Shown here piece by piece: positions 8,145 to 61,074 of a DNA stretch of 64,000 nt. The notes under the pieces are model-generated. The model saw nothing but the letters and a program-made list of their open reading frames with translations, did no database searches and was not told the origin of the DNA. Position 1 is the first letter of the stretch. Each line of letters begins with the position of its first letter. The DNA is from Hevea brasiliensis (lineage: Eukaryota > Streptophyta > Magnoliopsida > Malpighiales > Euphorbiaceae): assembly GCF_030052815.1 (NCBI RefSeq), contig NC_079501.1:78202979-78266978 (forward strand). Reading direction: 5' to 3'. The position numbers and the translations under genes are program-made.

Positions 8145-8150
8145 AAAACT

Positions 8151-15941: not shown

Positions 15942-16032
15942 CTGCAACAGATGAAATAGTTAAAAATGTATCAGTTTCTGAAAACGACAAAATAAGTTAT
16001 TCACACATAAATTAAATGATATCTTAATCTAC

Positions 16033-16308
16033 CTTTCCTGCCTCCACAAAATGTTTCAGACTGCTATATCGCATATCAAGAATAATCAGATTTTCCAGAC
16101 TGAGATCGAATGGTATAGATTCCAAAGGAAATTCACGCCAACACAACCATCTTAACTTGTTAGAAATATGCTTGTAGTCTCCTGCCAGGTGTATATAGTT
16201 GAGTTGAAGCAGTCTTAGCATTTTCATCTTTTTGAATGTTTTGGTACTCGATGAGTACTGTTTTAATCCTGGCATGTTCAGAACAAGGCCTTCAACTGCT
16301 CTTGTACC
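16033..16308 (-). CDS. TNL exon 3: NB-ARC to LRR linker and first LRRs
   Basis: Ninety-two codons, phase 0 at both ends. It begins GTRAVEGLVLN, the standard start of this exon in TNLs (GTxAVEGI-type), and continues into MLRLLQLNYIHLAGDYKHIS and LRWLCWREFPLESIPFD, the first degenerate LRRs. The acceptor is tctttaacag and the donor GGAAAG|GTAGAT. No damage is seen. Confidence 0.87.
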
Positions 16309-16397
16309 CTGTTAAAGAGGAGCAATTCATCACGTGTCTGGAGAAAGACAACATATAAACATGCATATTCAACGGGGGAACTGTGAACTTTTCCTAC

Positions 16398-17493
16398 CTT
16401 TTTATTTGTTAAAACATCAATTACATCTTCATGATGCCATAATCTACTACGTTCTCCAGGATCTACAACATGCTCTTTCCGTACGATTTCTCTTCCCATG
16501 TCCCGAAGCAAATCATGCATCGACATCTTGTTATTAGAGCCAACTTTTACTAGACACCTCCTCATCAGAGAATTAATGCCGTTAACCGGAAAGAAGCCGC
16601 ATTCTTCCAGTATGCTTATGACATAGTCCTTATCATACCCAGTGAAGAAACATGCAATATCAAGAAATATGAACTTTTCAAAATCACCAAGAGAATCATA
16701 ACTTATTTTAAACTTGCTGTGAATATCTTCATTGGCAATCACTTTCAGTTTTTCCAACCTGCTATTCCACACATCAACACTTTGGCCACTCAAAAAAGAA
16801 CCCAGAACTTCAAGAGCTAGAGGAATTCCCCCGCAATAGTGAACCATTTTTTTAGCACAAGCCATGTAGGCTTCAGTGGGATGGTTTTTGCCAAAGGCAT
16901 GTAAACTTAGGAGCTGAAGAGAATCATTGTCACCCATTTTGTTAACCTCATACTGCCAATACATCTCACATGGTTTTAGGAAATCCTTCATTCTAGTAGT
17001 TATAATCACTCTACTCCCAGGAGAAAACCAATCACATTTTCCTAGTATTTTATTTATTTGATCCTGTTTATCAACATCATCCAATACAAGAAGAACCATT
17101 TTGTTATGTGGTTTTTGTATGATCAAATTCAGTCCTATTTCGGGATTATATATCTTTTCATGTTTTTTTTTAGAGGTCTCAGTCAGAAGTTGCCTTTGTA
17201 AGTAGGGTATACCCTTGAAATGGGCAGCTTCTCTAACATTTTCAAGGAAGCAGCTGCTTTCAAATGTCTGGAACAGACAATTATAAACCTCTTTTGCAAT
17301 GGTTGACTTACCTATACCTCCCATCCCATATATCCCAACTATGCGTATGTCTTCTAACTCGTTAGCCATCAAAGAAATCATCCCTTCCGCTCGAGATTGT
17401 AAACCAATTGGGTGGATGGCAACATTGAGCATTGTTCGATTTAGTCTTCTTGAAATCTCTTCAACGATATGATCAATATTTTTTGCCTCATGC
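16398..17493 (-). CDS. TNL exon 2: NB-ARC domain
   Basis: Encodes about residues 161-526. Motifs appear in the right order: P-loop GMGGIGKST (about 217-225), RNBS-A-like FLENVRE, kinase-2 VLLVLDDVD (about 295-303, with the D-D pair), RNBS-B GSRVIITTR, GLPL as GGIPLALEVLG, RNBS-C/D-like FLDIACFF, and the MHD motif MHDLLRDMG near residue 490. The final W-type TNL tryptophan position after kinase-2 is replaced by a Q/I stretch (DKQDQINKIL). The acceptor is ttgacttgcag and the donor AAAAAG|GTAGGA. All nucleotide-binding motifs look functional, in contrast to the damaged LRR exon. Confidence 0.9.
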
Positions 17494-17805
17494 CTGCAAG
17501 TCAAAAAGTTGAAGTGGATATTATATAATACATAATAGTTAAACCAATAATAATGGTATCATCACACAAACAAGAGATCATAAGTTTGAAATTTTATAAA
17601 TCTTATATTACCTTCAAAAACCTCCATACACACAAAATTTGGGGTTTTCGTTTTATTTTTAATTGGATTATTACAAAATGCAACACAGATGTATAGTAAG
17701 ACGTTCTAAATCTATTCTTATCAAAGGACTAAAAATGCTAAAAAAATAATTAAAGAAAATAGTAACAGATCGAAGCATATATAGTTAGATCTATGACGGA
17801 TGTAC

Positions 17806-18287
17806 CCATCCAAGCGCTTTGGTAGATCAAGACCCTTCAAGGTGGAAACTTGTCGGAGAGCATCCTTCCACTTCTGTAGGACATCTTCCTTGAAATGCTT
17901 TTCATGCTCCACAAATGCTTCTTTATAGCTTCCTTGGATCTCTTCAACATGAGATGTATCTACATCATAAAAAATTGGCCAGACATCATCTGCTTTTTTA
18001 TACTTTAGGATTTGGACAAGCTCTTCCAGACACCAAGTAGAAGAGGCATAGTCTTTTGAGAGAAGGACTAGTGAAAATTTCGACTGCTGGATACCATTTA
18101 GGCATGCTGCTCCAATTTTCTCTGTGTCTTCCATCTTTTCCTCCTCTACATAAGCGTTGATTCCACTCCGACGCAAAACAGCGTAGAGGTGGCCAGTGAA
18201 GCCTTTCATTACATCCTTCCCTCTGAAACTCAAGAACACATCGTAAGTACTGCAAAATGAAGTAACGAAAATGGAGGTTGAAGCCAT
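17806..18287 (-). CDS. TNL exon 1: TIR domain
   Basis: Encodes residues 1-160 from the ATG at 18287, ending at a GG|GTACAT donor. The TIR core starts at about residue 14 with YDVFLSFRG. The alpha-C segment SSTWCLEEL keeps the glutamate that is catalytic in plant TIR NADases. FYDVD is present with DP changed to DT. The BB-loop region reads EEEKMEDTEKIG where most TNLs have a D-E-LERGEEI-like stretch, so the usual loop glycine is missing. The alpha-A 'SH' pair is GH (FTGHLY). These changes could weaken self-association or catalysis, but that is inference. The intron is phase 2 and rejoins as a glycine codon. Confidence 0.88.
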
Positions 18288-18324
18288 GGAATATTGGAAG
18301 AGATTGATTAGCTTTGCTGTCTTT

Positions 18325-21653: not shown

Positions 21654-21970
21654 AGAAATGAAAATAGTTAAATAAATTTTACAATAATTTATAAATAAGA
21701 ATTTTATTTAATATATGTAATTTTATTTATTTATAACACCATAAAAGTTTTGACAATAAAAAATTATATCCGCAGCAACGCGCGCGGGGTATTTGCAGCT
21801 TGTAATATAATTATTATATATAACTAAAACAAACAATCCAAGAAACATTAAAAGGGCAATTTTATCCTTTTTATTTTTATTCCTTTTCATTTTTATTTTG
21901 AATATATATATATATTCAAATTATTTCCTTTTTTAAATTTTGATTTCAATTTTAATTGTTAGGGCTTATA

Positions 21971-23775
21971 TGTTCATCACAAATAGAATTCATAAAATGT
22001 ATAAATGAGAAAGGAAAATTATTTTGAATACAATGGTAAATGTGAACCATTGTTTTAAATTGTGATCAATATGAATAACATAATGAATGAATAAATGAAC
22101 CATATTAATATATGAATGAGACATTAGTTCTCATTATTGTAGAAAGGAAAAGTAGTTTGTGTACAATGATATAAATGGATAATTGATGTGAATTGTAATC
22201 ATATATATGATCAAATGAATGTATGCATTATAATTGAAAATTATTATGAAATAATAAAGTCATAAAACACAATATATTAATAGTTAATGATATTATGTGT
22301 CCTTATATTGCTTAGACATATGTGTCAGATTGGACAGTTTGGCATGCTAATAAGGTATTGTTTTAGCAGTACTGCGAAAGGCTTTATGCCTATATTCATG
22401 GCTTTATACCCATATTCATGATTTTATGCCCGCACTCATGACTTTATGCTCGCACTCATGACTTTTATGTCTGATTATGTGATATCATGGCTTTTTAGCC
22501 ATACTGACAGCGTATGTGGTTGACGTTCTGCGTCCCATGGTATGACGGCCCGAGGCACCGCAATATCCAGTGCCAATGACCAGTTATCCAGTTTAGTCAG
22601 CCTATCATAGATTACTTGGACAGTCTAATTTATTAAAATAAGTTATGAATATTAGCAATTAAAAATGCTAGAAAGTAAATAAATGAGAAGAAGTTCCGAA
22701 ATAAATTAGATTAGCTCCAAAAATTTGTTCCTTAGAATGATATGAAATAAATTAAATTAGTTCTAAAAATTTTAAATATTACGAAATGATTGTAAACAAC
22801 TTAGAAAGTATCAAAGAAGTGATAAAAAAACTGGTAGAAGAATTATAACTTAAATAATATTACAAATGTGATTTTCATAAGAAAAGTATATATTTTAGAT
22901 TTATTTGTATATTATATAAATGATTATTGTAAACTTATGAAAGAAGTGATTCTAGAGAGCAACATAAAAAAATAAAAAAAAATGTACTACATAAATGACA
23001 AAAGAAAATGTATTGTATAGAAAATTTCATATGAACCGAGTAAAATTCTTGAATATAGAAAATATGCTCTAATTATTTTTATTTATTATATTATTTTCTT
23101 ATTATATTATTGCACCACTAAGCAGCAATGCTTAGCGCGATGGATTTGTTTCCTCGCGCAGGTACAAAAGTTAAAGCCCAGCGAATACCAAACAGAGATT
23201 TTGGAGTTCTGATCTGCAGATTGTTCAAGGTTATCACCTCCTCAGCAATGCATGTAGATAGGCCCCATATAAATCATATTATGTATTTTGTACATTATAA
23301 TTAGTTATTATTTGCAATGTAAACTATGAATTGTATGTTGAAATATAGATTATGGAACTGTAATTAATTTGTAGATCATGTAAATTATGAATTTATGTAA
23401 TCAGTCTGTAAATCATGTAAATTAATGAAACTTAAGAATTTATATATATAAATTGTGCATGAATGAAAATGCATGGAAATGAATATGAAATTGAGATATA
23501 TGAATGAGATGTGAATTATGAATGATTATGAGAATAATTAATGAGATTTTTATTGTAAAATATTCTTGAAATTTTCAAACAGATGAATAGTAAAACACAT
23601 CAAACGATAATAAAATAGGGAAAATTCCGTTAGTTTCTTCGTCGAAAAATAATCGATATTAAATATAACGAGAACAAAATTTTTAAAGAAATAAAGTAAG
23701 ATAAGTTAGGGTGCTCCGGCACTGAATGTAGCCCGCCTTGCTCGGCTACACTGTAGTCAGGTGAGGGGTGTTACA
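21971..23775 (+). mobile_element. Gypsy (Tekay/Del-style) LTR, solo or truncated
   Basis: Ends in GAGGGGTGTTACA at 23775. It contains a 20-bp tandem repeat (22380-22470), the block 'gacggcccgaggcaccgc' and 'caccactaagcagcaatgct' (23104-23123), all typical of plant chromovirus LTRs. It abuts the retroelement array with only GGC between them. The left limit is a guess: the first TG (tgttcatcac) after a composition change. No matching target duplication was found, so the left part may be rearranged. Confidence 0.55.
22380..22470 (+). repeat. 20-bp tandem repeat, about 4.5 copies
   Basis: Units of the type ggctttatgcctatattcat repeat with substitutions inside the gypsy LTR. Confidence 0.85.
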
Positions 23776-23778
23776 GGC

Positions 23779-24658
23779 TGACTTATGGTGGGCACTAATT
23801 CTTCAAAATTCGTGGGTCTATAATATGGTACTATTTATTCACTTGAAAGCCCATAATGAGGAGATTTTAGTGTTTCTAATGACTTTTATGTTCCTATATG
23901 GGTTGGGAGTCAACTTGGTATATTTGACCACCAAATATTCTCCAAGATCTTCAAAGATTATGGCCAGCAATAATATGGATGAATTTTGACTTGTCAACTC
24001 AGAATAGAATCTTGAGAGATTATTACCATCTTGGAAGATCTTGGCTAGCACTTTATTACTTAGGAATCTTTTACTTTTCTTTCCTATTTCTATTAGGATT
24101 TATTCTAGATTTGTATTTTTTTAATTCCTAATTAGTTTCTTTGTAATTTTTCTCTTTAGTTTTTTATCTTTACCTATAAATAGGCTCACATATGTAATGC
24201 TTAAACACAATTCAGAGATTTCAGACACTTTAGAGAATGAAGAGAAAAGCTTAGCATAAGTGCTACCAAATTTCAATTCTTATCAATCTAGTTTGATTGT
24301 GGCGAATTACTTGACTTATCACGAAAATCCTTGTGTGGCATCTACATTTGAAGATTGGGTTCTTTGTGGCTTTCTGAACTTATCAAAGAATTTATCTCTT
24401 CTACTTATCCTTTTATCTTTCTTGTTTTGTTCTTAGTTTCAGTTCATATACATCAAAACCACAAAAAGATTTTCTTTTATCATTTCCTTTTTTACTTTAA
24501 GTTAAAATCTAACACAATTGAATTCTTATATTTTGAGTGTTCTTGCTTGATTTTTATTTATTTCCTATTTGTTTAACGTTAGTTTTCTTGTTTCTTTCTC
24601 TTGAATTTTCTTTTGTTCAATTCAATTGAGTTATTTCCTACCTCACCAAGGCAAATTA
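23779..24658 (+). repeat. Array LTR 1
   Basis: Starts TGACTTATGG; its end has decayed to GGCAAATTA. It has a TATA box TATAAATAG at 24175-24183. The following primer site is mutated (TGGTATTAGAGC, 24662-24673). Confidence 0.85.
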
Positions 24659-25690
24659 GTTTGGTATTAGAGCTTAGGTGGTAGCACTTTGTGATCTTCA
24701 GAGTGCAAACACGTGAGGGAGTGTGTGAATTGAGTGTTTTATGTATACATAAAAAAAAAAAATGTTTGCAACAGGTTGTCAAGATGTGTTGTCACAACTT
24801 CACAACATCATTCAAGCTTCGGACAGAATGACTAGGCTGTGCAAATTGAAACAAGGTGACAAGTGTGTGGAAGAATATTTGGTGGAGTTCGTTGGATGTT
24901 ATGATTGTCAAGAGCCTCAACAGCAAGCAATTGCGAGATTTCTTACAGGTTTGAGGGATAATATTGCAGGATTAGTTGAATTGCAGCAGTTTGATTCTTT
25001 GGATGAATTAATTCAACTTGCATATGAGGCGGAATGGCAATGTGTGCGTGATACCAAATCAGCTTCTACATCATCAAATTCCAACCTAAAAGTGGAGACA
25101 AGCTTGCAACCTATTCAAGAAGAAATTGAGAACAAGCATGAAGTAGTCTTGATGGAGAAGGACCAAAATGACCTCACAGAAGAAATTGTTGTGCATGCTA
25201 ATGAGGGAGAATTACTATCCTTGGATTCCATAGCACAAGATAATGAGCCTGAGGAGTTAGTGACTTTATCACTAACAATTCCGAATGAAATTTCATTGTC
25301 TTTATCAGGTTCGAAGAGGTGCAAGTCAAGGTACCAAAAGTGTTTGGCACTTTTGTTACTCTACCCCAAAGAGATCATTTTATGTCCAAACAAATGATGA
25401 ACCAAGCATTAAGAAGAGTGGACCTTTCAAATGTTGTTCTTAATGTCCTTGGCAAGGATTTGAGGACAAATCCTTTTCAAGAAGGGTATGATGTGCCTAC
25501 AAAGGGGTCAAGAATTTTCATCAATTTTAGAACCTTGAAGCATGTTCATCATAAGCATGTAAGATGGAAGGAACATGGGAAACTATTTCATTATGATTGC
25601 ATGGGCTTAGTGATAGCAAAAGAGTTAAGCCTATTTGGAGTTAAGAAAATTAGGCCCAAATGGAGCACACTATTGGGGCATATATTGGGC
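24659..25690 (+). pseudogene. Array internal 1: gag remnant, longest uninterrupted gag part
   Basis: Frame 24762-25397 (211 residues) contains KQGDKCVEEYLVEF and, after QEPQQQ, an IARFLTGLRDNIAGLVELQ segment followed by LDELIQLAYEAEWQ. This is the C-terminal half of the chromovirus-type gypsy gag core. A seven-base difference from the other units at about 25310 shifts the frame. The rest continues in 25319-25693 with KVFGTFVTLPQRDHFMSKQM and DLRTNPFQEGYDVP, which resembles the last residues of gypsy polyproteins. Only this unit keeps the EPQ codons and lacks the amber stop seen in units 2-4. Confidence 0.65.
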
Positions 25691-26610
25691 TGACTTATGG
25701 TGGGCATTAATTCTTCAAAATTCGTGGGTCTATAATATGGTACTATTTATTCACTTTTGGAAGCCCATAATGAGGAGATTTTAGTGTTTCTGATGACTTT
25801 TATGTTCCTATATGGGTTGGGAGTCAATTTGGCATATTTGACCACCAAATATTCTCCAAGATCTTCAAAGATTATGGCCAGTAATAATATGGACGAATTT
25901 TGTCTTGTCAACTCAGAATAGAATCTTGAGAGATTATTACCATCTTGGAAGATCTTGGCTAGCACTTTATTACTTAGGAATCTTTTACTTTTCTTTTCCT
26001 ATTTCTATTAGGATTTATTCCATATCTATATTTCTTTTTTTCCTAATTAGTTTCTTTATAATTTTCCTCTTTAGTTTCTTATCTTTGCCTATAAATAGGC
26101 TCACATATGTAATGCTTAAAACACAATTCAGAGATTTCAGACACTTCAGAGAATGAAGAGAAAAGCTTAGCATAAGTGCTATCAAATTTCAATTCTTATC
26201 ACTCTAGTTTGATTGTGGCGAATTACTTGACTTATCACAAGGTTCCTTGTGTGGCGTCTACCTTTGAAGATCGGGTTCTTTGTGGCGTTATGAACTTATC
26301 AAAGAATTTCCCTCTTCTACTTATCCTTTTATCTTTCTTGTTTTGTTCTTAGTTTTAGTTCATATACATCAAAATCACAAAAAAAGATTTTCTTTTATCA
26401 TTTCCTTTTTTACTTTGTTGCAAGTAAAACCAAAAAATACCAAAAGAGTTAAAATCTGACACAATTGAATTCTTGTATTTTGAGTGTTCTTGCTTGATTT
26501 TTATTTATTTCCTATTTGTTTAACATTAGTTTTCTTGTTTCTTTCTCTTAATTCAAATTTTCTTTTGTTCAATTCAATTGAGTTATTTCCTCCCTCACCA
26601 AGGCACATCA
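25691..26610 (+). repeat. Array LTR 2
   Basis: Complete LTR, TGACTTATGG to GGCACATCA, with TATAAATAG at 26090-26098. An intact primer site TGGTATCAGAGC follows at 26614-26625. Confidence 0.87.
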
Positions 26611-27648
26611 GTTTGGTATCAGAGCTTAGGTGGTAGCATTTTGTGATCTTCAGAGTGCAAACACGTGAGGGGATGTGTGAATTGAGTGTTTTATGTATAC
26701 ATACAAAAAAAAAAAATTGTTTGCAACAGGTTATGAAGGTGTTGCCACAACTTCACAACATCATTCAAGCTTCGGACAGAATGACTAGGCTGTGCAAATT
26801 GAAACAAGGTGACAAGTGTGTGGAAGAATATTTGGTGGAGTTCGTTGGATGCTATGATTGTCAATAGCAAGCAATTGCGAGATTTCTTATAGGTTTGAGG
26901 GATGATATTGCAGGATCAGTTGAATTGCAGCAGTTTGATTCTTTGGATGAATTAATTCGACTTGCATATGAGGCGAAATGGCAATGTGTGCGTGATACCA
27001 AATTAGTTTCTACATCATCAAATTCCAACCTAAAAGTCAAGACAAGCTTGCAACCTGTTCAAGAAGAAATTGAGAACAAGCATGGAGTAGTCTTAATGGA
27101 GAAGGAGCAAAATGACCTCACGGAAGAAATTGTTGTGTATGTATGCTGATGAAGGAGGATTACTATCCTTGGATTCTATAGCACAAGATAATGAGCCTGA
27201 GGAGTTAATGACTTTATCACTAACAATTCCCAATGAAATTTCATTATCTTTGTTAAATTGCAGGTTCAAAGAGGTGCAAGTCCAGGTACCAAAAGTGTTT
27301 GGCACTTTTGTTACTCTACCCCAAAGAGATCATTTTATGTCCAAACAAATGATGAACCGAGCATTAAGAGGAGTGGACCTTTCAGATGTTGTTCTTAATG
27401 TCCTTGGCGAGGATTTGAGGACAAATCCTTTTCAAGAAGGGGGGTATGATGTGCCTACAAGGGGGTAAAGAGTTTTCATCAATTTTAGAACCTTGAAGCA
27501 TGTTCATCATAAGCATGTAAGATGGAAAGAACATAGGAAACTATTTCATTATGATTGCATGGGCTTGGTGAAAGCAAAAGAGTTAAACCTATTTGGAGTT
27601 AAGAAAATTAGGCCCAAATGGAGCATACTATTGGGGCATATATTGGGC
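26611..27648 (+). pseudogene. Array internal 2: broken gag/polyprotein-tail remnant
   Basis: Same content as internal 1, but the gag core is cut by a TAG after GCYDCQ (about 26863) where nine bases are missing. A further frame change lies near 27135 (an extra 'tatg'), and a stop follows DVPTRG (about 27466). Open pieces lie at 26643-26867, 26895-27149 and 27112-27468. Confidence 0.65.
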
Positions 27649-28565
27649 TGACTTATGGTGGGCATTAATTCTTCAAAATTCGTGGGTCTATAATATGATA
27701 CTATTTATTCACTTTTGGAAGCCCATAATGAGGAGATTTTAGTGTTTCTAATGACTTTTATGTTCCTATATGGGTTGGGAGTCAATTTGGCATATTTGAC
27801 CATCAAATATTCTCCAAGATCTTAAGATTATGGCCAGCAATAATATGGACGAATTTTGGCTTGTCAACTCAGAATAGAATCTTGAGAGATTATTACCATC
27901 TTGGAAGATCTTGGCTAGCACTTTATTACTTAGAAATCTTTTACTTTTCTTTTCCTATTTCTATTAGGATTTATTCCAAATCTATATTTCTTTATTTCCT
28001 AATTAATTTCTTTGTAATTTCCCTCTTTAGTTTCTTATCTTTGCCTATAAATAGGCTCACATAGGTAATGCTTAAACACAATTAAGAGATTTCAGACACT
28101 TCAGAGAATGAAGAGAAAAGCTTAGCATAAGTGCTACCAAATTTCAATTCTTATCAATCTAGTTTGATTGTGGCGAATTACTTGACTTATCACAAGGTTC
28201 CTTGTGTGGCGTCTACCTTTGAAGATCGGGTTCTTTGTGGCGTTATGAACTTATCAAAGAATTTCTCTCTTCTACTTATCCTTTTATCTTTCTTGTTTTG
28301 TTCTTAGTTTCAGTTCATATACATCAAAATCACAAAAAAAGATTTTCTTTTAACATTTCCTTTTTTACTTTGTTGCAAGTAAAACTAGAAAATACAAAAA
28401 GAGTTAAAATCTGACACAATTGAATTCTTGTATTTTGAGTGTTCTTGCTTGATTTTTATTTATTTCCTATTTGTTTAACGTTAGTTTTCTTGTTTCTTTC
28501 TCTTAATTTGAATTTTCTTTTGTTCAATTCAATTGAGTTATTTCCTCCCTCACAAAGGCACATCA
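27649..28565 (+). repeat. Array LTR 3
   Basis: Complete LTR with TATAAATAG at 28046-28054. An intact primer site follows at 28569-28580. Confidence 0.87.
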
Positions 28566-29602
28566 GTTTGGTATCAGAGCTTAGGTGGTAGCATTTTGTG
28601 ATCTTCAGAGTGCAAACACGTGAGGGGGTGTGTGAATTGAGTGTTTTATGTATACATACAAAAAAAAAAAAATTATTTGCAACAGGTTATGAAGATGTGT
28701 TGTCACAACTTCACAACATCATTCAAGCTTCGGACAGAATGACTAGGCTGTGCAAATTGAAACAAGGTGACAAGTGTGTGGAAGAATATTTGGTGGAGTT
28801 CGTTGGATGCTATGATTGTCAATAGCAAGCAATTGCGAGATTTCTTATGGGTTTGAGGGATGATATTGCAGGATTAGTTGAATTGCCGCAGTTTGATTCT
28901 TTGGATGAATTAATTCAACTTGCACATGAGGCAGAATGGCAATGTGTGCGTGATACCAAATTAGCTTCTACATCATCAAATTCCAACCTAAAAGTGGAGA
29001 CAAGCTTGCAACCTATTCAAGAAGAAATTGAGAACAAGCATGGAGTAGTCTTAATGGAGAAGGAGCAAAATGACCTCACGGAAGAAATTGTTGTGTATGC
29101 TGATGAGGGACGATTACTATCCTTGGATTCTATAGCACAAGATAATGAGCCTGAGGAGTTAATGACTTTATCACTAACAATTCCCAATGAAATTTCATTA
29201 TCTTTGTTAAATTGCAGGTTCAAAGAGGTGCAAGTCCAGGTACCAAAAGTGTTTGGCACTTTTGTTACTCTACCCCAAAGAGATCATTTTATGTCCAAAC
29301 AAATGATGAACCGAGCATTAAGAGGAGTGGACCTTTCAGATGTTGTTCTTAGTGTCCTTGGCGAGGATTTGAGGAAAAATCCTTTTCAAGAAGGGGGGTA
29401 TGATGTGCCTGCAAGAGGGTCAAGAATTTTCATCAATTTTAGAACCTTGAAGCATGTTCATCATAAGCATGTAAGATGGAAAGAACATGGGAAACTATTT
29501 CATTATGATTGCATGGGCTTGGTGAAAGCAAAAGAGTTAAACCTATTTGGAGTTAAGAAAATTAGGCCCAAATGGAGCATACTATTGGGGCATATATTGG
29601 GC
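28566..29602 (+). pseudogene. Array internal 3: gag/polyprotein-tail fusion, longest frame (252 aa)
   Basis: Two pieces: 28598-28825, ending at the shared amber stop, and 28847-29605, which stays open through the gag tail (LRDDIAGLVELPQF), an acidic spacer (NDLTEEIVVYADEG, AQDNEPEEL), the VFGTFVTLPQRDHF block and the DLRKNPFQEGGYDVP tail, up to the next LTR. It is the best-preserved copy of the second half. The join between gag and tail has no protease, RT or integrase between them, which marks a large internal deletion in the founder. Confidence 0.68.
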
Positions 29603-30516
29603 TGACTTATGGTGGGCATTAATTCTTCAAAATTCGTGGGTCTATAATATTGTAATATTTATTCACTTTTGGAAGCCCATAATGAGGAGATTTTAGTGTT
29701 TCTAATGACTTTTATGTTCCTATATGGGTTGTGAGTCAATTTGGCATATTTGCCCATCAAATATTCTCCAAGATCTTCAAAGATTATGTCCAGCAATAAT
29801 ATGGACGAATTTTGAGTTGTCAACTCAGAACAAAATCTTGAGAGATTATTACCATCTTGAAAGATCTTGGCTAGCACTTTACTAATTAGGAATCTTTGAG
29901 TTTTCTTTTCTTATTTTTGTTAGGTTTATTAAATATCTGTATTTCTTAATTTACTAATTAGTTTCTTTGTAACTTTCTTCTTTAGTTTCTTATCTTTGCC
30001 TATAAATAGACTCACATATGTAATCTTTGAAACACAATTCGAGATTTGGACACTTCAGAGAATGAAGAGAAAAGCTTAGCATAAGTGCTATCAAATTTCA
30101 ATTCTTATCAATCTAATTTGATTATGGTGAATTACTTGACTCATCAAAAGGTTCCTTGTGTGCCATCTAACTTTGAAGATTGGGTTCTTTGCGATGTTCT
30201 GAACTTATCAAAGAATTTCTCTCTTCTACTTATCCTTTTATCTTTCTTGTTTTATTCTTAGTTTCAATTCATAGACATCAAAAGTACAAAAGTATTTTCT
30301 TTTATCCTTTCCTTTTGCTTTGTTGCAAGTTAAACAAGAAAATTCCAAAAGAGTTACAATCTGACATAATTCAATTCTTGTGTTTTGAGTATTCTTGCAT
30401 GATTTTCACTTATTTCCTATTTGTCTATTGTTAGTTTTCTTATTTCTTTCTCTTGATTCAAATTTCCTTTTTGTTCAATTCGATTGAGTAATTTCTTCCC
30501 TCATTAAGGCACATCA
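29603..30516 (+). repeat. Array LTR 4 (most diverged)
   Basis: TGACTTATGG to GGCACATCA, with TATAAATAG at 30001-30009. It has visibly more substitutions than LTRs 2, 3 and 5. The primer site TGGTATCAGAGC at 30520-30531 is intact. Confidence 0.85.
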
Positions 30517-31539
30517 ATTTGGTATCAGAGCCTAGGTGATAGCATTTTGTGATCTTCTTAGTGAAAACAGGTGAGGGGTTGGGTTAATGGAGTGTTTTAG
30601 GTATCCATACAAAAAAAAAATTATTTGCAATAGGTTATGAAGATGTGTTGTCACAACTTCACAACATCATTCAAGCTTCGAACAGAATGACTAGGCTATA
30701 CAAATTGAGATAAGGTGACAAATGTGTAGAAGAATATCTAATGGAGTTCGTTGGATGCTATGATTGTCAATAGCAAGCAATTGTGAGATTTCTTATGGGT
30801 TTGAGGGATGATATTGCAGGATTAGTTGAATTGCATGATTTGATTCTTTGGATGAATTAATGCAACTTGCACATGAGGCGGAATGACAATGTGTGCGTGA
30901 TACCAAATTAGCTTCTACATCATCAAATTCCAACCTAAAAGTGGAGACAAGCTTGCAACCTATTCAAGAAGAAATTGAGAACAAGCATGGAGTAGTCTTA
31001 ATGGAGAAGGAGCAAAATGACCTCACAGAAGAAATTGTTGTGTATGCTGATGAGGGAGGATTACTATCCTTGGATTCTATAGCACAAGATAGTGAGCCTG
31101 AGGAGTTAATGACTTTATCACTAACAATTAACAAAGAAATTTCATTAAATTAGTTAAATTGAATGTTAAAAGAGGTGCAAGTCCAGGTACCAAAAGTGTT
31201 TGGCACTTTTGTTACTCTACCCCAAAGAGATCATTTTATGTCCAAACAAATGATGAACTGAGCATTAAGAGGAGTGGACCTTTCAGATGTTGTTCTTAGT
31301 GTCCTTGGCGAGGATTTGAGGACAAATCCTTTTCAAGAAGGGGGGTATGATGTGCCTACAAGGGGGTAAAGAGTTTTCATCAATTTTAAAACCTTGAAGC
31401 ATGTTCATCATAAGCAAGTAAGATGGAAAGAACATGGGAAACTATTTCATCATGATTGCATGGGCTTGGTGAAAGCAAAAGAGTTAAACCTATTTGGAGT
31501 TAAGAAAATTAGGCCCAAATATTGGGGCATATATTGGGC
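30517..31539 (+). pseudogene. Array internal 4: degraded gag/polyprotein-tail remnant
   Basis: Carries the same amber stop after YDCQ (about 30768) plus more stops: a TAA after 'aaattgaga' near 30710, a TGA at 30886-30888, a TAG near 31151 and a TGA near 31258. The longest open piece is 30893-31153. Its 3' end lacks 'ggagcacacta' before the LTR. Confidence 0.63.
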
Positions 31540-32455
31540 TAACTTATGGTGGGCATTAATTCTTCAAAATTCGTGGGTCTATAATATGGTAATATTTATT
31601 CACTTTTGGAAGCCCATAATGAGGAGATTTTAGTGTTTCTAATGACTTTTATGTTCCTATATGGGTTGGGAGTCAATTTGGCATATTTGACCATCAAATA
31701 TTCTCAAGATCTTCAAAGATTATGTCCAGCAATAATATGGACGAATTTTGACTTGTCAACTCAGAATAAAATCTTGAGAGATTATTACCATCTTGGAAGA
31801 TCTTGGCTAGCACTTTATTACTTAGAAATCTTTTACTTTTCTTTTCCTATTTCTATTAGGATTTATTCGGATCTATATTTCTTTATTTTCTAATTAGTTT
31901 CTTTGTAATTTTCCTCTTTAGTTTCTTATCTTTGCCTATAAATAGGCTCACATATGTAATGCTTAAACACAATTCAGAGATTTCAGACACTTCAGAGAAT
32001 GAAGAGAAAAGCATAGCATAAGTGCTACCAAATTTCAATTCTTATCAATCTAGTTTGATTGTGGCGAATTACTTGACTTATCACAAGGTTTCTTGTGTGG
32101 CGTCTACCTTTGAAGATCGGGTTCTTTGTGGCATTATGAACTTATCAAAGAATTTCTCTCTTCTACTTATCCTTTTATCTTTCTTATTTTGTTCTTTGTT
32201 TGATTCATATACATCAAAACCACAAAAAAGATTTTCTTTTATCATTTCCTTTTTTTACTTTGTTGCAAGTAAAGCCAGAAAATAACAAAAGAGTTAAAAT
32301 CTGACACAATTGAATTCTTGTATTTTGAGTGTTCTTGCTTGATTTTTATTTATTTTCTATTTGTTTAACGTTAGTTTTCTTATTTCTTTCTCTTAATTCG
32401 AATTTTCTTTTGTTCAATTCAATTGAGTTATTTCCTCCCTCACCAAGGCACATCA
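31540..32455 (+). repeat. Array LTR 5 (right end of array)
   Basis: Starts TAACTTATGG (G to A in the terminal TG), has TATAAATAG at 31937-31945, and ends GGCACATCA at 32455. The next bases are not a primer site but unrelated sequence (actattaataac), so this is the outer LTR. Confidence 0.87.
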
Positions 32456-32977: not shown

Positions 32978-35050
32978 TGAAGGAGCGGAAGCATGTTGGT
33001 AGGTGAATTAGAACATTGAATTCAAAAATTTTCTTCTAGGGTTTCAGGCATCATGCCACAACCATTATGTGCCTAATTAATTTCAATGTTCAATTACATA
33101 TTAACACACTTTTAATATGCATTAGGATCTACATTTGCCATTTAAGATTTTTGAATTAACGAATTTATTTATTAGAACCCTAGATTAAAAGAATAATATG
33201 TGCACTAACCTTTTGATGCACTGTAGAAGTAATTGGTACCTTTGTGAAGCACCTAGGACCCCAAGTGTTATCCCTCTAGCTTATCCACACCAAGATCACC
33301 AATAGGCAGCCCCTTATCTTGCTTCTCAAGCCTTAGCAACCAATTATAAATTGGTTGTAGATGTATAGGGCGTTAGAAATAATTTATAGCAATTTTAATT
33401 CAAAGGAATTTGGGCAATTCTCTTTGAATTGATGAGAAAAGATGAAGAGGAGATGAGAGAGACCAAGGTGGTGGCACCTTTGAGAAAATAAAAGTGTATA
33501 TATTTCTTCTTTTCTTTTCCCTTTTATAATTAGGTCATCGCTTAAAACCCTTGCCACATGTCATCACCTCATTGCATCTTATTTAAATTGAATTAATAAC
33601 ATTAAACCAAGTGTCAAAGCTAAACTTAATCTTGACTTTGATCATCTTACATGATAGAAAGACAAATGGCAAGCTTATGTGATGCCATGTGTCACCATCT
33701 CATGGTGCCACATGTCACCCTGTGAAATGACCAAATTACCCTTGTGTTGTAATTTTGAGTTCTCAACCCAAAATTATTATTTCTCCTCTTCTAATCAATT
33801 TATATCAAATATAAATTAATTAATTAATCTCTATTAATTAATTTCTCATAATTAAATTCATATTTAAACACTTTAAATATAAATTTAACTTGTACTATAC
33901 ATCTAATAACCTAGATTTGGTTTCAAGCCATGCTAGGGACTTTGCAATTTTATTGTAAACCAAACCTATTTAATTAATCAATTAAACTCTTTAATTAATC
34001 AATTAAATCACATTTAACTTGGTGATTATCTTGTGTATGTGTGTGACTCACTAGGCTCATCACTAATTGGCAATGAGATATGATATCAACTCTTAATATC
34101 ATCAGAACTCTTTCTTACCATAAATGATTTCTCTAAATCATTTTAAGCACCTCATAGACCATGGTTAACACCTAGCATAGTATGCCATGGCCACCCAATC
34201 GATAATAAGGAATACCTTAAATGAATCTATAATTATATGTTACCATGCACTAGAATCTCTGTTACAAAATTTCAATTCTAGCTAGAGTTATGGTTAATGT
34301 CAAACCCCATTTGTTATGAATATTATGTTCTCTTTTAATTCCAGTTCTTAATTAATAAGATTTTCTTATCAAAAACTCTTTTCTGATTAAATTTATGCAT
34401 CTGGCAGAATTAACATTAAGAATAATTAAATGAATATAGGATTTTATCCTATTTACTTAGGGTATGATTCCATCTTGATCAACACCTACCTCTATATATA
34501 ACTAGTAAGAGCCAACACATGCCAATATACCCATACACAGTACAAGTATGAAAGCAGTATCAAACTCAAACCACTTATATACAAGATAATCGTGTTATCT
34601 AGGTCTAAAGATTATATGCACTGATATGATTTATGACAATGCATTGAAAAGAGTAAAATCCACATGCTTGTCATAAGTGTCACTGGTTCGACCTACTTAT
34701 CATGTATAAGTGCCTATCATGATTGTTATATGGCATGAGACTCACCATTCTATCTTATTTATATCTCATATAAATACCTTGGGAACAAACATAATTACAA
34801 TTTTTCTGCATAAGTCATGTCCTTATTGTGAAGTATCCTCGATTGTGAACCAATTTATGATACTTTGTGCTAGAAATACTGTCACTCATATTCTTAACAA
34901 CTTAAGAATAAAATTTCTAACAAAATATCAATGGACCTTTTCTATTACACATAAATACATTATGTAAACGAAAAAGTGAAATTGCTTTTTATTAATAAAA
35001 TATGTACTAGATACATACAAAATGATATGCTCTAGGGCATACTACTAACA
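32978..35050 (-). repeat. Copia-A 3' LTR
   Basis: 2073 bp. The minus-strand start TGTTAGTAGTATGCCC is preceded by the purine-rich tract tggctctagtgctagtggga (35073-35051 read in reverse). The ORF at 34710-34967 and its counterparts in the other LTRs are chance frames. Confidence 0.88.
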
Positions 35051-35204
35051 ATCTCCCACTAGCACTAGAGCCATTCATTACATAATCTTAGACCCATCTT
35101 TTTAAGATGTCGGTCTAACTGAGCTTGTGACATAGGCTTAGTGAATGGATCAGCTGGATTTTCAGCTGATGCTATTTTCTGCATGGCTATATCGCCTCAC
35201 CCAA

Positions 35205-35537
35205 CTATCTTTCTGATAATGTGGTAGTGCCTTTCTTTGTGTTTGGATTTCTGGTGAGATCGAGGTTCCTTATCCAAATAGCCTCTTTTGCAGCATCTGA
35301 TGCAGCAATATACTCGGCCTCTGTAATGGAATCTGCAGTCGAACTCTGGTTGGAACTCTTCCAACTGACTGCACCTCCATTACAAATGAACACAAAACTA
35401 GAGGTAGACTTTCTATCATTGATATCTGATTGAAAATCAAAATCAGTGTAACCATCTAATTGCAATTCACCACCTCCATAAATCAAGAATAAATCCTTAG
35501 TTCTTCTCAAGTGCTTAAGGATATTCTTGACAGCTAT
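35205..35537 (-). pseudogene. Copia-A RNase H, internally deleted
   Basis: Copia RNase H with DGYTDFDFQSDINDRKSTSS, GGAVSWKSSNQS and TEAEYIAASDAAKEAIWI. It then jumps directly to a shifted RNLDLTRNPN, where Copia-B and Copia-C carry about 28 more residues (including PLHCDNN) before the same KEPRSHQKSKH-coding bases. A deletion of about 85 bp removes the catalytic D-N segment and shifts the frame. A stop at 35538-35540 (TGG to TAG) separates it from RT. Confidence 0.75.
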
Positions 35538-36737
35538 TCAGTGTTCCAAACCTAGATTGGATTGAAACCTACTAATCAAACTAACAGCATATGCGATATC
35601 CGGTCTAGTACACAATATTGCATACATTAAACTTCTAATAGCTGAAGCATATGGAATCCTGGCCATTTTATCTCTTTCTTCTGGTGTCTTTGGAGACATC
35701 TCTTTAGAAAGGAGGATACCAAGTCTCATTGGTAACAATCCTCTCTTGGATTCAAGCATGTTAAACCTCTTTAACACCTTTTCTAAGTATAGACTTTGGG
35801 ATAAACCAATTATTCTTTTCTCTCTATCTCTATAGATGCAAATTCCAAGAATATAGGTTACCTCCCCTAAGTCTTTCATGGAGAATGTATTTGACAACCA
35901 TACCTTTACAATTGTCAACATACTAATGTCATTACTCATTAATAAAATGTCATCCACATATAAGACAAGGAAAGTGACAATATTATCACTAACCTTCTTA
36001 TATATGCATGGTTCATCCTTATTTTTTATGAAACCAAATGACTTAATAGCTTCATTAAAATGGATGTTCCAACTCCTCAAAGCTTGTTTTAACCTATAAA
36101 TGGATCGCTTTAGCTTGCACACCTTGGAACCATCTTGGGATTCAAAACCCCTAGGTTGTTCCATGAAAATGTTTTCATCAATGTATCCATTAAGAAAAGC
36201 TGTTTCGATATCCATCTACCAAATCTCGTAATCATAGTATGCAGCTATTGCTAATAAAATCCTAATTGATTTAAGCATGGCAACAAGCGAGAAAGTCTCC
36301 TCATAGTCGATTCCTTGCCTTTGGCGAAACCCTTTCGCAACTAGCCTTGCTTTATAGGTCTCTACCTTTCAATTAGAACTAATTTTCTTCTTGAAAATCT
36401 ATTTATTCCCTACAGGTACAATACCTTCAGGTGGGTCAACAAGATCCCAAACTTGGTTCTTATGCATGAACTCAATTTCAGATTTCATAGCTTCAATCCA
36501 TTTTCAAGAGTCTATATCTGATATAGCTTTGTCATAGGTAAGTGGATAATCTCCATGATCTACTTCTTCATGAATAAACAACTCTTGTTCATCTTCATGA
36601 ACAAAACCATATCTCATTGGTGGGTGAGATATCCTGGTTGATCTGCGAGGAATTACTCTAGATGTTTCATTAACAGGTGTAGGTTGACTAGATGGATCTA
36701 TATCCATTTGATCTGTTGGTTGGTCAGAATTCTCCAA
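35538..36737 (-). pseudogene. Copia-A reverse transcriptase
   Basis: The RT part reads AFLNGYIDENIFMEQPRGF, KLKRSIYRLKQALRSWN and the catalytic FLVLYVDDILLM (about 35955). Upstream, a linker (ENSDQPTDQMDIDPSSQ) and the start of RT are interrupted by several stops, for example TAG before MDIETAF at about 36216. RT copies the element RNA into DNA, but this copy cannot make a whole enzyme. Confidence 0.8.
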
Positions 36738-36782
36738 TTCTAACTCTATTTGCCTTCCTTTGCCTCCTTCTTGAATAAACTG

Positions 36783-37203
36783 TTATTCAAGAAATATGGC
36801 ATCTCTGCTGACCACAACCTTTTGTGATGTTGGCAAATAAAAATAATGTACAAAACATTTTTTTCGATATCCAACAAATCGACCTTTCTCTGATCTAGTT
36901 TCTAACTTATCAGTGTTCAGCTTTTTGATATAAGCTCGATAATCCCAAATCTTAACATGTTTAAGACTCAGTTTTCTTCCATGCCATATCTCATAAGGTG
37001 TGGAAGAAATTAATTTTGATGGAATCTGATTCAGAATATACAAAGCTGATTCTAATGCAAATCTCCAAAAGGAGACTGGCATATCAGTATAGCTCATCAT
37101 ACTACGTACCATATCTAATAGGGTACGATTTCTCCTTTCAGATACACCATTCAGCTTTGTTGTTCCTGGAGGAGTCAGCTAGGAAGTAATGCCATGCTCT
37201 TTC
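36783..37203 (-). pseudogene. Copia-A integrase, C-terminal part
   Basis: Reads MVRSMMSYTDMPVSFWRFAL, then IPSKLISSTPYEIWHGRK and SEKGRFVGY, the standard copia integrase C-terminal region. It starts at the insertion point of the gypsy solo LTR (CTTTC at 37199-37203) and ends at a stop before the RT linker. Confidence 0.78.
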
Positions 37204-40200
37204 TGTCACACCCTACCCCTCCGTAAGGCATGACATGATCCCGTAGTATACCCAATGAATTACCAAACTTTGTCTACTGATAACCTATTAAATACACTAC
37301 AAGGGATTTTAAACCTTTTCTTACTTCTTTTTACAGTGGTGAGCACTATTGACAGGTGTTAAAAATTTTCTTTTAATAAAGTGAAACCAAATAACAATTT
37401 AAAGTATTAATAATTTTTGTAAAAATTTTGACAGGGTGCCATCTGTATTTTGAATAAAACAGTTCTTTAAAAACCTGTAACAAGCACTTCCAATATATTT
37501 CTCAATCCCAAACTCCAATAAATTTGCTCAGCACAATAAATTTCTCAACATTATCAATTCAGTTCAACAATTAATTTTCCAGTATTTCCAAAAGCTGAGA
37601 TAAGATAAATATACCACAATATTTTTACAAGCCAAAATGATTTACAATTTTAGCTTATAACTGCTCAAGACCAAGTACAATACATATATACAGTGCAAAC
37701 ACATTACAACAAAAACTACAAAATATGGTATACTCAATATACCTGGTGAAATCTCAAAATATAGCACAAGCAATGAAAAAGCTATCGCTATATACTCTGC
37801 TGCTCTGTCCATCCGTCTACCTGCGACAGCAATGAAAAAGCTATCGCTGAGTAAAATTTACTCAGTAGTGCACAATAACAATTTAAAATGTGGTATATAA
37901 AACTTTTATTGATAATTTACAATTCAAATAATTCACAATTTCCTGTCACAATTTTCAAAGCTCGTATAACACAAATTTGATCAAACGATTGAATAACACA
38001 GTATTGCCAATCAATAACACAACTTAGGTCATGACAGAAACTTTTCCAAATATGCCGTGTTGTACACCACGACAAGGCATACTCACATCATTAATCGAAA
38101 TCAATGAGGGAGGTGGCTAGTTAGCTAATGAGTACACATCTATACTCACCTCAGACTGACAAGTCAAAAAGGGAGGAATATAGTCATACTCACCCCATAA
38201 ATGGAGGAGGAAAGTAGTCATACTCACCCCATAAATGGAGGAGAAAAATAGTCATACTCACCCCATGGAGGAGGAAAATGTCATACTCACCCCATAAATG
38301 GAGGAGAAAAATAGTAATATTGTCATGCCAAGTATGAATCAAAATAATTCCAAATCACAATATTTAAACATTTCATACAAATCAAAAATCATATTTTTAC
38401 TCAAAATTTCCATTTGCAAAGTAGGCAACACAATAATTCTCAAATAAAATTCCCAAAGCCAAAACAATAAAAAATTATTCATAACTCATTTCTCCAAATA
38501 AATTTTCTGGTAAAAGTAGTGAATATAAAAATATTGTGCATGCACCTCGATAAATGCCTCTTGGCCCTGACTCAGTGTTCCTTATGCTTCTCAATATCCT
38601 TTTCAACTGAAACACACAATTTAAAGTGCTTTAGTACTCAATGAACTTGTTTCTAACAATAAAATCCAATATTTAAATTTTCTTGGTACTATTCCCTTCA
38701 ATTCATTTCATTAGTCAACCTATAATGTTGACTCTTGATGCACTCTAAGTGAGTCAATTCTAATGTTACCAATATGTCACATTTTATAGCCCTTTAGTGT
38801 TGGTATATGTTATCAATTTCATTTCCAAGTGTATTGCATTTTATTGCAATTTACCGGATTTCAGTATACTATTTTGACCTAGCCGGATGACCTAGTTTCC
38901 TCAATTTTCGGGTTCCGATCCAAACTACAAACTTGTAGGTCTATGTCTTATTGCACGCGGGACAAAATTTCAGGTCATTCTGAGTTGTGTAGACCAAGAT
39001 ATGGTCAATTTACCAATGCTGGACAGAATGCACTAAAATGGTAGGCTTAGGTCATTTTTAGGTCATTTTCATTTTGGTCAGTTTTAGTATCCAAACTTGT
39101 GCAAGCCATTTGGCTTGGTTCTGGCTATTTCTGGGCTTTGGTGTCTTCATAAGAATTGTAGATCTATGTCTAAAATATTCATGGTAAAAATTTCAGGCCA
39201 TTTGGACCTGTTTTGAGTAAGTTATGGTCAAAACACTAACTACTGCCCAAATGGATAATTTTCAGGCTTTCAAGTCACTAATCCGGATTTGGTCATTTTT
39301 CAAGTCACCTTCTAGGCAGAATTTAGGTAAGCTTCCTTCATGAAATTTGGCACATTTTGTGCCTAGTTTCACCTCCAATTGGTCTCATACCAATTGGAGT
39401 CACACACTTAAGGTTCTAAGCTAAAATATACACTGCCCTACTACACATTCTTCATCACTTATCAATTGCACATTCTATACTTACTAAGCTAACTCTTTCA
39501 TGCCAATTCTGTTTTGTACCATACCATTAACACACTTAACAACACATTTTGGTCATTTTTGGATAGCTTGTAACCATTCTCAACATACACATTATAACTC
39601 AGAATTTTCCAAAGTCCATTTATATAATTTAACCACATGAACATACCCCATTTACATATCCAATTCCAATCTATTATACACATATACATGCTGCCACCAT
39701 AAACAACATAATTCAATAAACCAAACCATGAAACAACATATTTCTAACCACACTTTAAAGTTGCCAATTCACCTCATGGAAAATATCTCCTTCAAATTGC
39801 TTTCAAGCTTCCAAAATCAAGTGCACCATTACACATGCTCTTAATATACATTGTCTAAATCATTTCTATACACATAAACACTTACATCAACATCTTAAAC
39901 TATCATTAACAAGTAAAAACAAACTAAATATGCTGAGTTCCAATGGCTACCGAAATGTTGTACCACCATTAAATCATCAAACTTCAAAACTTCTTCCATA
40001 AAACAACTCACCACAACATCCACTCAAAGTTTAATGAAACAAGAATGGAAAATACACACTTACCACCTTTGAAGCTTGATCAAAACTTCACTAAACCTCC
40101 TTAAAATTGCTACCAAAATCTTCCTTGGAAGGCGAGGATTAACTTTAAAGAAGGGACTTAGTGGAAAGGATGGCTCAAAGTGGGTTGCATGGAGCTTGGA

Positions 40201-40933
40201 AGATTTTGGCTATGGAGTTTTTCTCCCAAGGGACTTTAGCTGGTTGGCTCCAGGAAGCAGATGAAGGAATCTGCTGCCACAAATCTGATTAATGATCCAC
40301 TTTGAAGATATTAGTGGAGCACTAAGATAATTTTTAATATTTGTTTAATCAAAATTTTCATAATTCCCACATTTAACCTCTTTTCTTTCACTATTTAAAT
40401 TATGGGCCACCATTTTAATTTTCATGGTATTTTCAAAGTTTAATATTATTTATTTTTAATGGACATTTAGGTCAAAAGGCAACTTGGAGTGTCAATTGAC
40501 CACAATACCCCTATTCGGGTTGCTTTTCAGCCTTTTCGGTAACACCGATTTTCATAAGTTTCTCGATTTTTTGTTTTTTCTTTGTACTAATTATTTAATT
40601 TTTCTTTGACATTTCTAATATCATTTATTTTTCAATAGATGTTTATTTAAGTCTCAAAAATATTTTCTAGAGTTCCTCACGGTCCAAGGCTAGTCAACGG
40701 CCCACGCCGCAACTTCGCGGTGCGGTTACCCATCGGTACGGTTTTATTCGTTTAGCTTAGTTCCATTTTCTATCTTTTATTTTTCCTTTATTTTTTTTGT
40801 ATCTTCCTCTATTGTATTTCACTACCTTATATCTCCACACTAATATTTAAATATAATTCCAAGCATCCTAGCTGTCCGGACAAACACTGTCATCGGAACA
40901 GTAGAACGCACTACCGAATATAGGGGTGTTACA
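37204..40933 (+). mobile_element. Gypsy solo LTR (3.7 kb) inserted in Copia-A integrase
   Basis: Begins TGTCACACCCT and ends GGGGTGTTACA. CTTTC directly before (37199-37203) and after (40934-40938) is a perfect 5-bp target duplication. Removing the insert plus one CTTTC restores the same reading order as in Copia-C at 57530. There is no coding capacity and no second LTR. The right half is homologous to 1-1387. The same-strand call follows from that homology. Confidence 0.88.
38184..38312 (+). repeat. About 32-bp tandem repeat in the solo LTR
   Basis: Four copies of a 'gtcatactcaccccataaat' plus 'ggaggag' unit, one of them shortened. Confidence 0.88.
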
Positions 40934-40938
40934 CTTTC

Positions 40939-41629
40939 AAGTATTCATCAAATTCAGTACTCAAGTATTCACCTCCTCGATTTGATCGAAGAGTTTTCAT
41001 ACTTTTTTCTGTTTGATTTTCTACTTCAGATTTAAATTCTTTGAACTTTTCAAAGGATTCATGTTTATATTTTATCAAATATAATACCCAAACCTTGATT
41101 TATCATCAGTAAAGGTAATAAAGTAATGAAAACCGCCTCTAGCCATTTCCTTAAATGGATCACATACATCACTATGTATTAGCTCCAAAATATTTTCAGC
41201 TCTTAGTCCTTGTCTAACAAAGGGTGATCTAGTCATTTTGCCTTGAAGGCAAGATTCATAAGTTGAAGTAGGTTCAGAACCCAATGAGGATAAAATCCTC
41301 ATTTTCTCCAGCTTTGCAATCCTATCTTCCGCAACATGACTTAATCTTAAGTGCCAAAGATATTTTGAACTTGAGTTGATTTTCATCATGGCATTACATT
41401 CATTTAGATTGATTGCATTCAATTTGTGTTTATCATTATTATCCAAATAATAAAGACCATCATGCATAAAACCCGAGCTAACATATTTATTTCCAAAATA
41501 AATATTATAAACATCATTTGTGAACTGAAATTCATAACCATTTCTAGTCAAACTAGATATTGAAATGATGTTCTTAAAAGCATCAGGTATATACAAAATA
41601 TTATTTAAACACAAAATATGTCCACACAT
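40939..41629 (-). pseudogene. Copia-A GAG-pre-integrase and integrase N-terminal part
   Basis: Includes the LCLNNILYIPDAFKNIISIS start, the zinc-type WHLRLSHVAEDRIAKLEKM and YESCLQGKM segment (the first cysteine is Tyr; Copia-C has CESC), then the catalytic core start IHSDVCDPF and YFITFTDDKSRFGY. Past 41075 the frame shifts and runs to the solo-LTR insertion at 40938. Confidence 0.78.
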
Positions 41630-41639
41630 ATAAAAATAT

Positions 41640-41840
41640 TTAGATCCTGTGGCTAAAGCTTAAACAGTTGAGCCATCGCCAATCCAGAGTCTAACATCTC
41701 GAGCATGCAAGCTACTACTGTTTGCTAGTTCCTGCATATCATAAGAAATGTGAGAACTGGTACTAGTATCTAAAACCCAAGCTGTAGATGAACTGTGAGT
41801 ATCATCAGCATCTAAATAACAAGATATAGACATGCCTTCT
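41640..41840 (-). pseudogene. Copia-A aspartic protease remnant
   Basis: The minus-strand frame around 41790-41660 gives AWVLDTSTSSHISYDMQELA, then RLWIGDGSTV and a stop. Copia proteases have D-T-G-A-S/T-S-H-I here; the active aspartate is kept but Gly-Ala is Ser-Thr. The protease cleaves the Gag-Pol polyprotein; this copy is dead. Confidence 0.6.
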
Positions 41841-41879
41841 GAAGGTGTATCCTTCTTGTCCTTCAGAGAAGCAAAATAC

Positions 41880-44341: not shown

Positions 44342-44355
44342 TGGCTCTGATACCA
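44342..44355 (-). other. Copia-A primer binding site (tRNA-iMet)
   Basis: TGGTATCAGAGCCA on the minus strand, two bases inside the 5' LTR. It matches the initiator-tRNA type used by copia elements. Confidence 0.9.
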
Positions 44356-44357
44356 AT

Positions 44358-55301: not shown

Positions 55302-55315
55302 ATCTCCCACTAGCA

Positions 55316-61072: not shown

Positions 61073-61074
61073 AT

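Follow-up and report, generated by a model that had tools for sequence, protein, structure and literature searches.

A tandem array of five long terminal repeats in the Hevea brasiliensis genome and its probable growth by unequal crossing over

Architecture and boundaries of the array

The window considered here is a stretch of 64,000 nucleotides from Hevea brasiliensis (NCBI RefSeq assembly GCF_030052815.1, contig NC_079501.1, positions 78,202,979 to 78,266,978 of the forward strand), which lies on contig C9 of the 1.88-Gb assembly. Its subject is a tandem array of a retroelement with long terminal repeats (LTRs). Repeat finding and self-BLAST resolve 23776-32455 on the + strand into five LTRs and the four internal segments between them, with repeat starts spaced 1912, 1958, 1954 and 1937 bp apart (a period of 1.91-1.96 kb). 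An earlier note, made from the sequence alone, had described five LTRs and four internal segments in one orientation at steps of about 1.9 kb, and this description is confirmed. By the LTR bounds used first, the units are 90.3-97.5% identical in pairwise comparisons of about 1.9 kb, which is far beyond chance. Given the alternation of LTRs and internal segments, the LTR at both ends and the single orientation, the locus is an LTR-sharing tandem array, of which the first LTR is truncated.

The first bounds, with an LTR start at GCTGACTTATGG and an internal part of about 1 kb, were dropped because other copies show the true start upstream. Copies elsewhere in the genome with complete ends have an LTR that begins TGATGTGCC and ends CACATCA, such that the LTR start falls about 200 bp upstream of the placement in the earlier note, after a G-rich polypurine tract. 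In the window, TGATGTGCC is found directly 3' of a purine tract that ends in a G run plus TA. With corrected ends, complete LTRs in the window measure 1.11-1.12 kb and internal parts 830-836 bp, and the internal length of about 1 kb and the LTR bounds of the earlier note are therefore wrong. Divergence values (K) are given for the corrected bounds unless stated.

From left to right, the array consists of LTR1 (23776..24658), which begins at LTR position 200; internal segment 1 (24659..25488); LTR2 (25489..26610), with a TGATGTGCC start after the polypurine tract and a CACATCA end; internal segment 2 (26611..27446); LTR3 (27447..28565); internal segment 3 (28566..29400); LTR4 (29401..30516); internal segment 4 (30517..31347); and LTR5, the 3' LTR (31348..32455), all on the + strand. 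The primer site TGGTATCAGAGC, which we take to be of the tRNA-iMet type, follows LTR1 with one mismatch (24662-24673) and LTR2, LTR3 and LTR4 exactly (26614-26625, 28569-28580 and 30520-30531). No primer site is present 3' of LTR5. The remark in the earlier note that only the right outer flank is free of one is thus borne out, and it describes what is normal for a 3' LTR.

The right border is the original end of the element, at which LTR5 finishes with the natural CACATCA and is followed by ACTAT. The left border is not an original end, given that LTR1 lacks its first 199 bp and is abutted exactly, at 23775|23776, by a foreign TGTTACA LTR-type end that finishes with GGGGTGTTACA. The foreign LTR-type pieces extend over 21955..23775 and are presumably Del/Tekay-like; those at 21955-22588, 23045-23296 and 23690-23775 match a 4.4-kb insertion on C13 that is described below. 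Remnants of the array were sought to the left of LTR1 within the window, and none was found. Because the left end is secondary, the original array may have had more than four units. Elsewhere, the single copies L018 and L028 of the family are flanked by clean target-site duplications of 5 bp, AAACT and TGTTT respectively.

Coding content and classification

Unit 1 contains a gag-like open reading frame (ORF) of 211 amino acids at 24762-25397; its Pfam matches, Ty3_capsid at E=0.0011 and Retrotrans_gag at E=0.0015, fall under the cut-offs. A 9-bp deletion that is common to units 2-4, and not found in unit 1, is the point at which the gag-like frame of units 2 and 3 stops. No pol domain was matched by Pfam in the four ORFs scanned, which gave, apart from the gag-like ORF, either nothing or matches at E 0.11-0.17. 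A protein search with the gag-like ORF returned 296 candidates, none of them at E <= 0.001, and a search of viral contigs returned no match.

With no pol between primer site and polypurine tract, in an internal part of 0.83 kb, the element looks non-autonomous. The weak Ty3_capsid match is the one ground on which it is assigned, weakly, as probably of the Ty3/gypsy type. Terminal-repeat retrotransposons in miniature (TRIMs) are very short elements with short LTRs and without coding capacity; an LTR of 1.12 kb plus a gag-like fragment places the element outside this class. The TR-GAG class comprises non-autonomous elements that carry a recognisable GAG domain, and the element has only the gag-like matches under the cut-offs, in a frame that stops early in two of the units.

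Copies of the family in the genome

A 28-base pattern that combines the LTR end with the primer site occurs at 153 places in the genome, and a control pattern at none. For the 100 places listed, 42 with a GCCT or GCAT end were dropped and 58 were kept, including one GCCT place, which is unit 4 of the window. Among the matches listed, 24 of the 58 kept primer sites have a neighbour on the same strand within 4.5 kb. These clustered sites include three in the window, three on C195 and a pair on C7 that lies 595 bp apart, which is not a full unit; as C9/C195 and C13/C209 are homologous pairs, there are fewer independent arrays than the clustered-site count. Similarity searches scored the best 31 of 365, 40 of 229 and 40 of 240 candidates, and family loci outside the comparison include C6, C16, C7:80.6 Mb, C13:33.3 Mb, and C17:21.8 and 56.8 Mb.

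Many truncated copies of the family border on a foreign LTR-type end (TGTAACACC / GGTGTTACA, and variants), which suggests that nesting of foreign LTR elements in the family may be frequent.

A second assembled copy and a divergent patch

Contig C195 is collinear with positions 13278-42773 of the window at 97.9% and has an array of the same makeup, five LTRs with four internal segments. The two copies differ at 222/10450 sites in the left flank, 85/10281 in the right flank and 117/8671 in the array, and the array differences are distributed as 91 in 29860-30837, 8 in 31130-31164 and 18 elsewhere. In a tree of 38 internal segments, each unit of the window is sister to the same-numbered unit of C195. 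The four units therefore already existed when the C9 and C195 copies diverged, whether these are alleles or the result of a duplication.

The 91 differences define a divergent patch (29860..30837, + strand) that extends from LTR4 into the start of internal segment 4; it belongs to the C9 copy, and C195 lacks it. Outside itself, the patch is best matched by its own C195 counterpart (90%) and then by other units of the array (87-89%), and no close donor is found among the best 40 of 229 candidates. Its variant states are shared with other rows of the family at 46/73 sites in the LTR, as compared to 21/33 for LTR1, and at 10/32 in the internal part, as compared to 29/34 for unit 1, which is no more often than for ordinary private changes. 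Gene conversion as the source of the unit 4 patch, with another copy as donor, is thus not proven, as there is neither a close donor among the candidates scored nor an excess of shared states. Sites with a primer site of the GAGCCT type were considered as a donor subfamily and rejected, given that the similarity of L045 and L046 to the array element is confined to short stretches and that the two represent a different element.

Over LTR4 and internal segment 4, transitions and transversions number 58:47, a ratio at odds with both random base error (p=6e-6) and decay in place (p=3e-6). Differences rich in transversions are found in several array units, with ratios of 9:17 and 3:9 on C12 versus 24:9 for LTR1 of the window, and they hint that base-level assembly errors may affect several array units.

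History of the units

The internal segments of the window and C195 form one clade (support 100/100) among the 38 internal segments, and the ten LTRs of the two copies form one clade (support 100/99) in an LTR tree of 53 rows; a single clade in both trees favors one insertion. To enter the trees, a piece had to cover upward of about 700 bp of internal sequence or 780 bp of LTR, and the C209 units are not among the rows. The order of the LTRs in the tree is positional, R1|R2|R3|R4,R5, with weak forks at 89/80 and 81/51.

Divergence was read from C195, because its unit 4 lacks the patch. Internal segment I1 differs from the others by K 0.046-0.056, I2 from I3 and I4 by 0.027-0.037, and I3 from I4 by 0.015. 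For the LTRs, K is 0.049-0.053 for R1, 0.036-0.042 for R2 and 0.028-0.029 for R3-R5 among themselves. The contrast between I3-I4 (12/833 differences) and I1-I3 (36/819) is significant by Fisher test (p=0.0004), with I3 shared by both pairs. Among informative sites that divide the units into two groups, the positional order fits five of six in the internal part and five of eight in the LTR. A rate often used for grasses, 1.3e-8 per site per year, would date the duplication steps, if it holds for this genome, to roughly 2, 1.2 and 0.6 million years ago. Growth in steps accounts for the stepped K values, which integration of a ready-made tetramer does not.

Hybrid LTRs at sister loci

Crossover products can be read directly at sister loci. 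The C12 array (65.19 Mb) again combines five LTRs with four internal segments; the locus has a second copy, at 90.43 Mb, with two LTRs, one internal segment and the same truncated first LTR. The flanks of the two copies are 98.3% identical over 2.2 kb on the left, where similarity ends, and 98.2% identical over 5.6 kb on the right, the stretch compared. The outer LTRs are diverged, with K 0.0645 in the one-unit copy. Sites at which the three inner LTRs of the array agree against the 3' LTR number 0/485 before LTR column 510 and 29/577 after it (p=2e-8), and past this column the inner LTRs are of the 5'-LTR type in 83/84 diagnostic cells. The three inner LTRs are hybrids, of downstream-LTR type and then of upstream-LTR type. 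This polarity is what unequal crossover between two LTRs must give, and it supports the crossover mechanism. As the 5' LTR lacks its own first half, the position of the switch is only approximate. In the tree, the four units of the C12 array group together with the one-unit copy outside them (96/84, on a short branch), a grouping that weakly favors expansion of the locus over contraction.

A larger array on C13 (62.51-62.53 Mb) is interrupted by the 4.4-kb foreign insertion, which has a 5-bp duplication, AATTC, as read by eye. The left flank of the C209 array is 94.7% like that of C13 over the first 2.9 kb, LTR included, but the structure is different, with six internal segments in an array that runs into the contig end. 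Further tandem rearrangements of the family are seen at L022, with repeated deleted LTRs, and at L033, with repeats of about 300 bp across the LTR-internal boundary.

Direct joins between LTRs

LTRs that are joined directly, with the spacer GTTTA, are found once on C8 (an exact case), twice on C13 and once on C209 (more decayed). The spacer is made up of GTT, the bases that separate the LTR end from the primer site, and TA, the bases that separate the polypurine tract from the LTR start. As remnants of both ends of the complementary DNA (cDNA), these bases are exactly what ligation of the ends of unintegrated linear cDNA would give. A genome scan for the join with up to three mismatches (<=3) found three places, and none with a reversed control; a scan for exact ends with any spacer of 0-25 bases found only the C8 join. 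These rare joins are the most unusual feature of the family. The C209 join links clearly different elements, given that K across it is 0.097-0.119 for the LTR and 0.131-0.148 for the internal part. The C8 structure has outer ends CTTCA and CCTCA (read by eye, one mismatch). An insertion origin of the joins stays conceivable, as five bases is the length of a target-site duplication and GTTTA flanks one C13 LTR on both sides.

The C13 LTR that lies between two GTTTA joins resembles its downstream neighbor first and its upstream neighbor later. One switch in the predicted direction fits 82 of 101 sites, as compared to 55 of 101 for the reverse direction, with five sites that carry a third letter outside the count, and none of 20,000 shuffles reaches this fit. 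Crossing over therefore seems to have duplicated a C13 LTR along with a joint. The hybrid LTR between two joints also suggests a tentative scheme, on balance rather doubtful, in which the family grows its arrays in two linked steps: unintegrated cDNAs, joined at their ends, would enter the genome and leave LTR-GTTTA-LTR joints, and unequal crossover between LTRs would then duplicate both ordinary units and the joint. If so, integrated joints of the two-LTR type would preserve past cDNA concatemers as fossils in the genome.

Origin of the array

It is quite probable that the array in the window began as a single insertion, grew in place through unequal exchange between mispaired LTRs and then lost its left end. 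The founder would have been one non-autonomous insertion of about 3.1 kb, with two LTRs of 1.12 kb and an internal part of 0.83 kb that held the primer site, the gag-like fragment and the polypurine tract. Unequal crossovers between mispaired LTRs, probably in three rounds, would have produced four internal segments and five LTRs. Later, a foreign LTR may have landed in the left LTR, and everything to the left of this insertion, the original end and any further units included, would then have been lost. The earlier note had also proposed unequal LTR recombination, which is supported by the hybrid LTRs on C12 and C13 and with which the window itself is only consistent. Its expectation that copy number may vary is matched by homologous loci elsewhere (four units versus one on C12, and C13 versus C209), but no variation was seen here, where both assembled copies have four units. 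The genome search that it called for did find other arrays of the unit, such as those on C12, C13 and C209. Its view of arrays this long as uncommon is not supported, given the 24 of 58 listed sites that are clustered and the arrays of five, seven and thirteen LTRs already in print.

Several observations weigh against growth in place by crossing over. One of the six two-group sites of the internal part contradicts the positional order, as do LTR sites of the pattern 14|235, with all five LTRs present, and of the pattern 24|35, which is found twice, at sites 5 bp apart in the stretch that LTR1 lacks. No crossover switch is resolvable in the inner LTRs of the window, where sites are few and LTR1 is truncated. 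The split between LTR1 and LTR5 (K 0.050 in C195, and 0.055 in the window by the first bounds) is of the same age as the first duplication (K about 0.05), and a dimer could thus have been present already at integration. With the left end lost, ACTAT on the right flank has no partner with which to form an outer target-site duplication. Unit 2 of C195 has a smaller patch of its own. Neighboring family units on C18 fall in separate clades, so clusters of independent insertions do occur in the family, and the tree leaves the relation of neighboring units on C5 unresolved.

An origin from cDNA, be it a multimer made during reverse transcription, joined or recombined extrachromosomal cDNA, or cDNA added to an existing copy, is unlikely. 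Ligated cDNA ends predict the GTTTA joins seen on C8, C13 and C209, the last of which connects clearly different elements, but no inner joint of the window is of the LTR-GTTTA-LTR kind, the stepped ages of the units oppose integration of all four at once, and the units form one clade. Serial nested insertion of separate elements into each other's LTRs is largely refuted for the window and very improbable. The separate clades on C18 and the foreign LTR ends beside many family copies are what nesting would lead one to expect; in the window, however, each inner LTR directly follows a polypurine tract and directly precedes a primer site, with exact joints and no extra target-site duplications or split LTRs, and the units again are one clade. 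Duplication of a single LTR-internal-LTR element by the assembly has hardly any probability left: the transversion-rich differences in some units resemble base-level assembly error and the C209 array does run into a contig end, but the C195 internal segments differ from each other by K 0.015-0.056, and all four units recur, as pairwise sisters and each with its own substitutions and indels, on C195, which belongs to the same assembly and is hence not a fully independent test.

Neighboring features in the window

A second LTR-sharing tandem lies on the - strand at 50246-63798 and beyond (L047). It is of the copia type, with RVT_2 and copia gag matches by Pfam, and its order is LTR-internal-LTR-internal-LTR-partial internal-LTR, continuing to about 72.0 kb in window coordinates, where the compared stretch ends. 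A further copy of this copia-type element occupies 32978-46463 on the - strand, with LTR sequence at both ends and a primer site at 44344-44355. About 5 kb from the array on the other side, a disease-resistance-type gene of the TIR-NBS-LRR class is found on the - strand at 15074-18323, with TIR, NB-ARC and LRR matched by Pfam in three ORFs and a tandem repeat of 144 bp within the LRR portion. To the left of this gene, 822-9417 holds direct and inverted repeats of 84-93% identity.

Relation to known systems

The array in the window is well preserved, and its sister loci make it more informative about mechanism than most. Diverged outer LTRs let crossover products be read site by site, and homologous loci differ in unit number; the question of recombination versus retrotransposition therefore becomes testable from sequence alone. 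Such arrays may also seed satellite-like DNA and mislead assemblies.

In yeast, multimeric Ty1 arrays arise by cDNA recombination, and their units share LTRs. The array in the window shares LTRs likewise, but the source in yeast is cDNA, whereas the evidence for the window favors chromosomal exchange. Integrase-independent tandem formation in yeast is mentioned in a survey of tandem LTR-retrotransposons (PMC11899658).

In kind, the array is ordinary, given that arrays with five LTRs and four internal segments are already in print. The maize Zma-SMART L5I4 array has this structure, as a tandemly arrayed TRIM (TA-TRIM) that spans 862 bp and has a target-site duplication (PMC4717578). TA-TRIMs are likewise non-autonomous and are common in plants (PMC4717578), but their units are far shorter, whereas the array described here has 1.12-kb LTRs, a gag-like fragment and a truncated left end. 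Cassandra arrays reach 13 LTRs with 12 internal domains (PMC7215508), and Wukong arrays reach seven LTRs (PMC4528315). Both are LTR-internal arrays as here, but of TRIMs. Cassandra carries 5S sequences, and its authors report that its units do not differ (PMC7215508), in contrast to the divergence among the C195 internal segments.

Among the literature matches listed, as judged by title and the opening of the abstract, there was no published description of hybrid LTRs in tandem arrays or of two-LTR joins in genomes. LTR-sharing tandems in rice, Arabidopsis, almond and cotton have been attributed to a single insertion, and tandem LTR-retrotransposons are enriched for gypsy elements in rice and Arabidopsis and vary structurally between haplotypes (PMC11899658). 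The same 2025 survey describes tandem LTR elements as common and polymorphic in plants, and leaves open the choice between recombination and insertion of multimers (PMC11899658). The mechanism is thus undecided there, whereas the hybrid LTRs at the sister loci described here support recombination.

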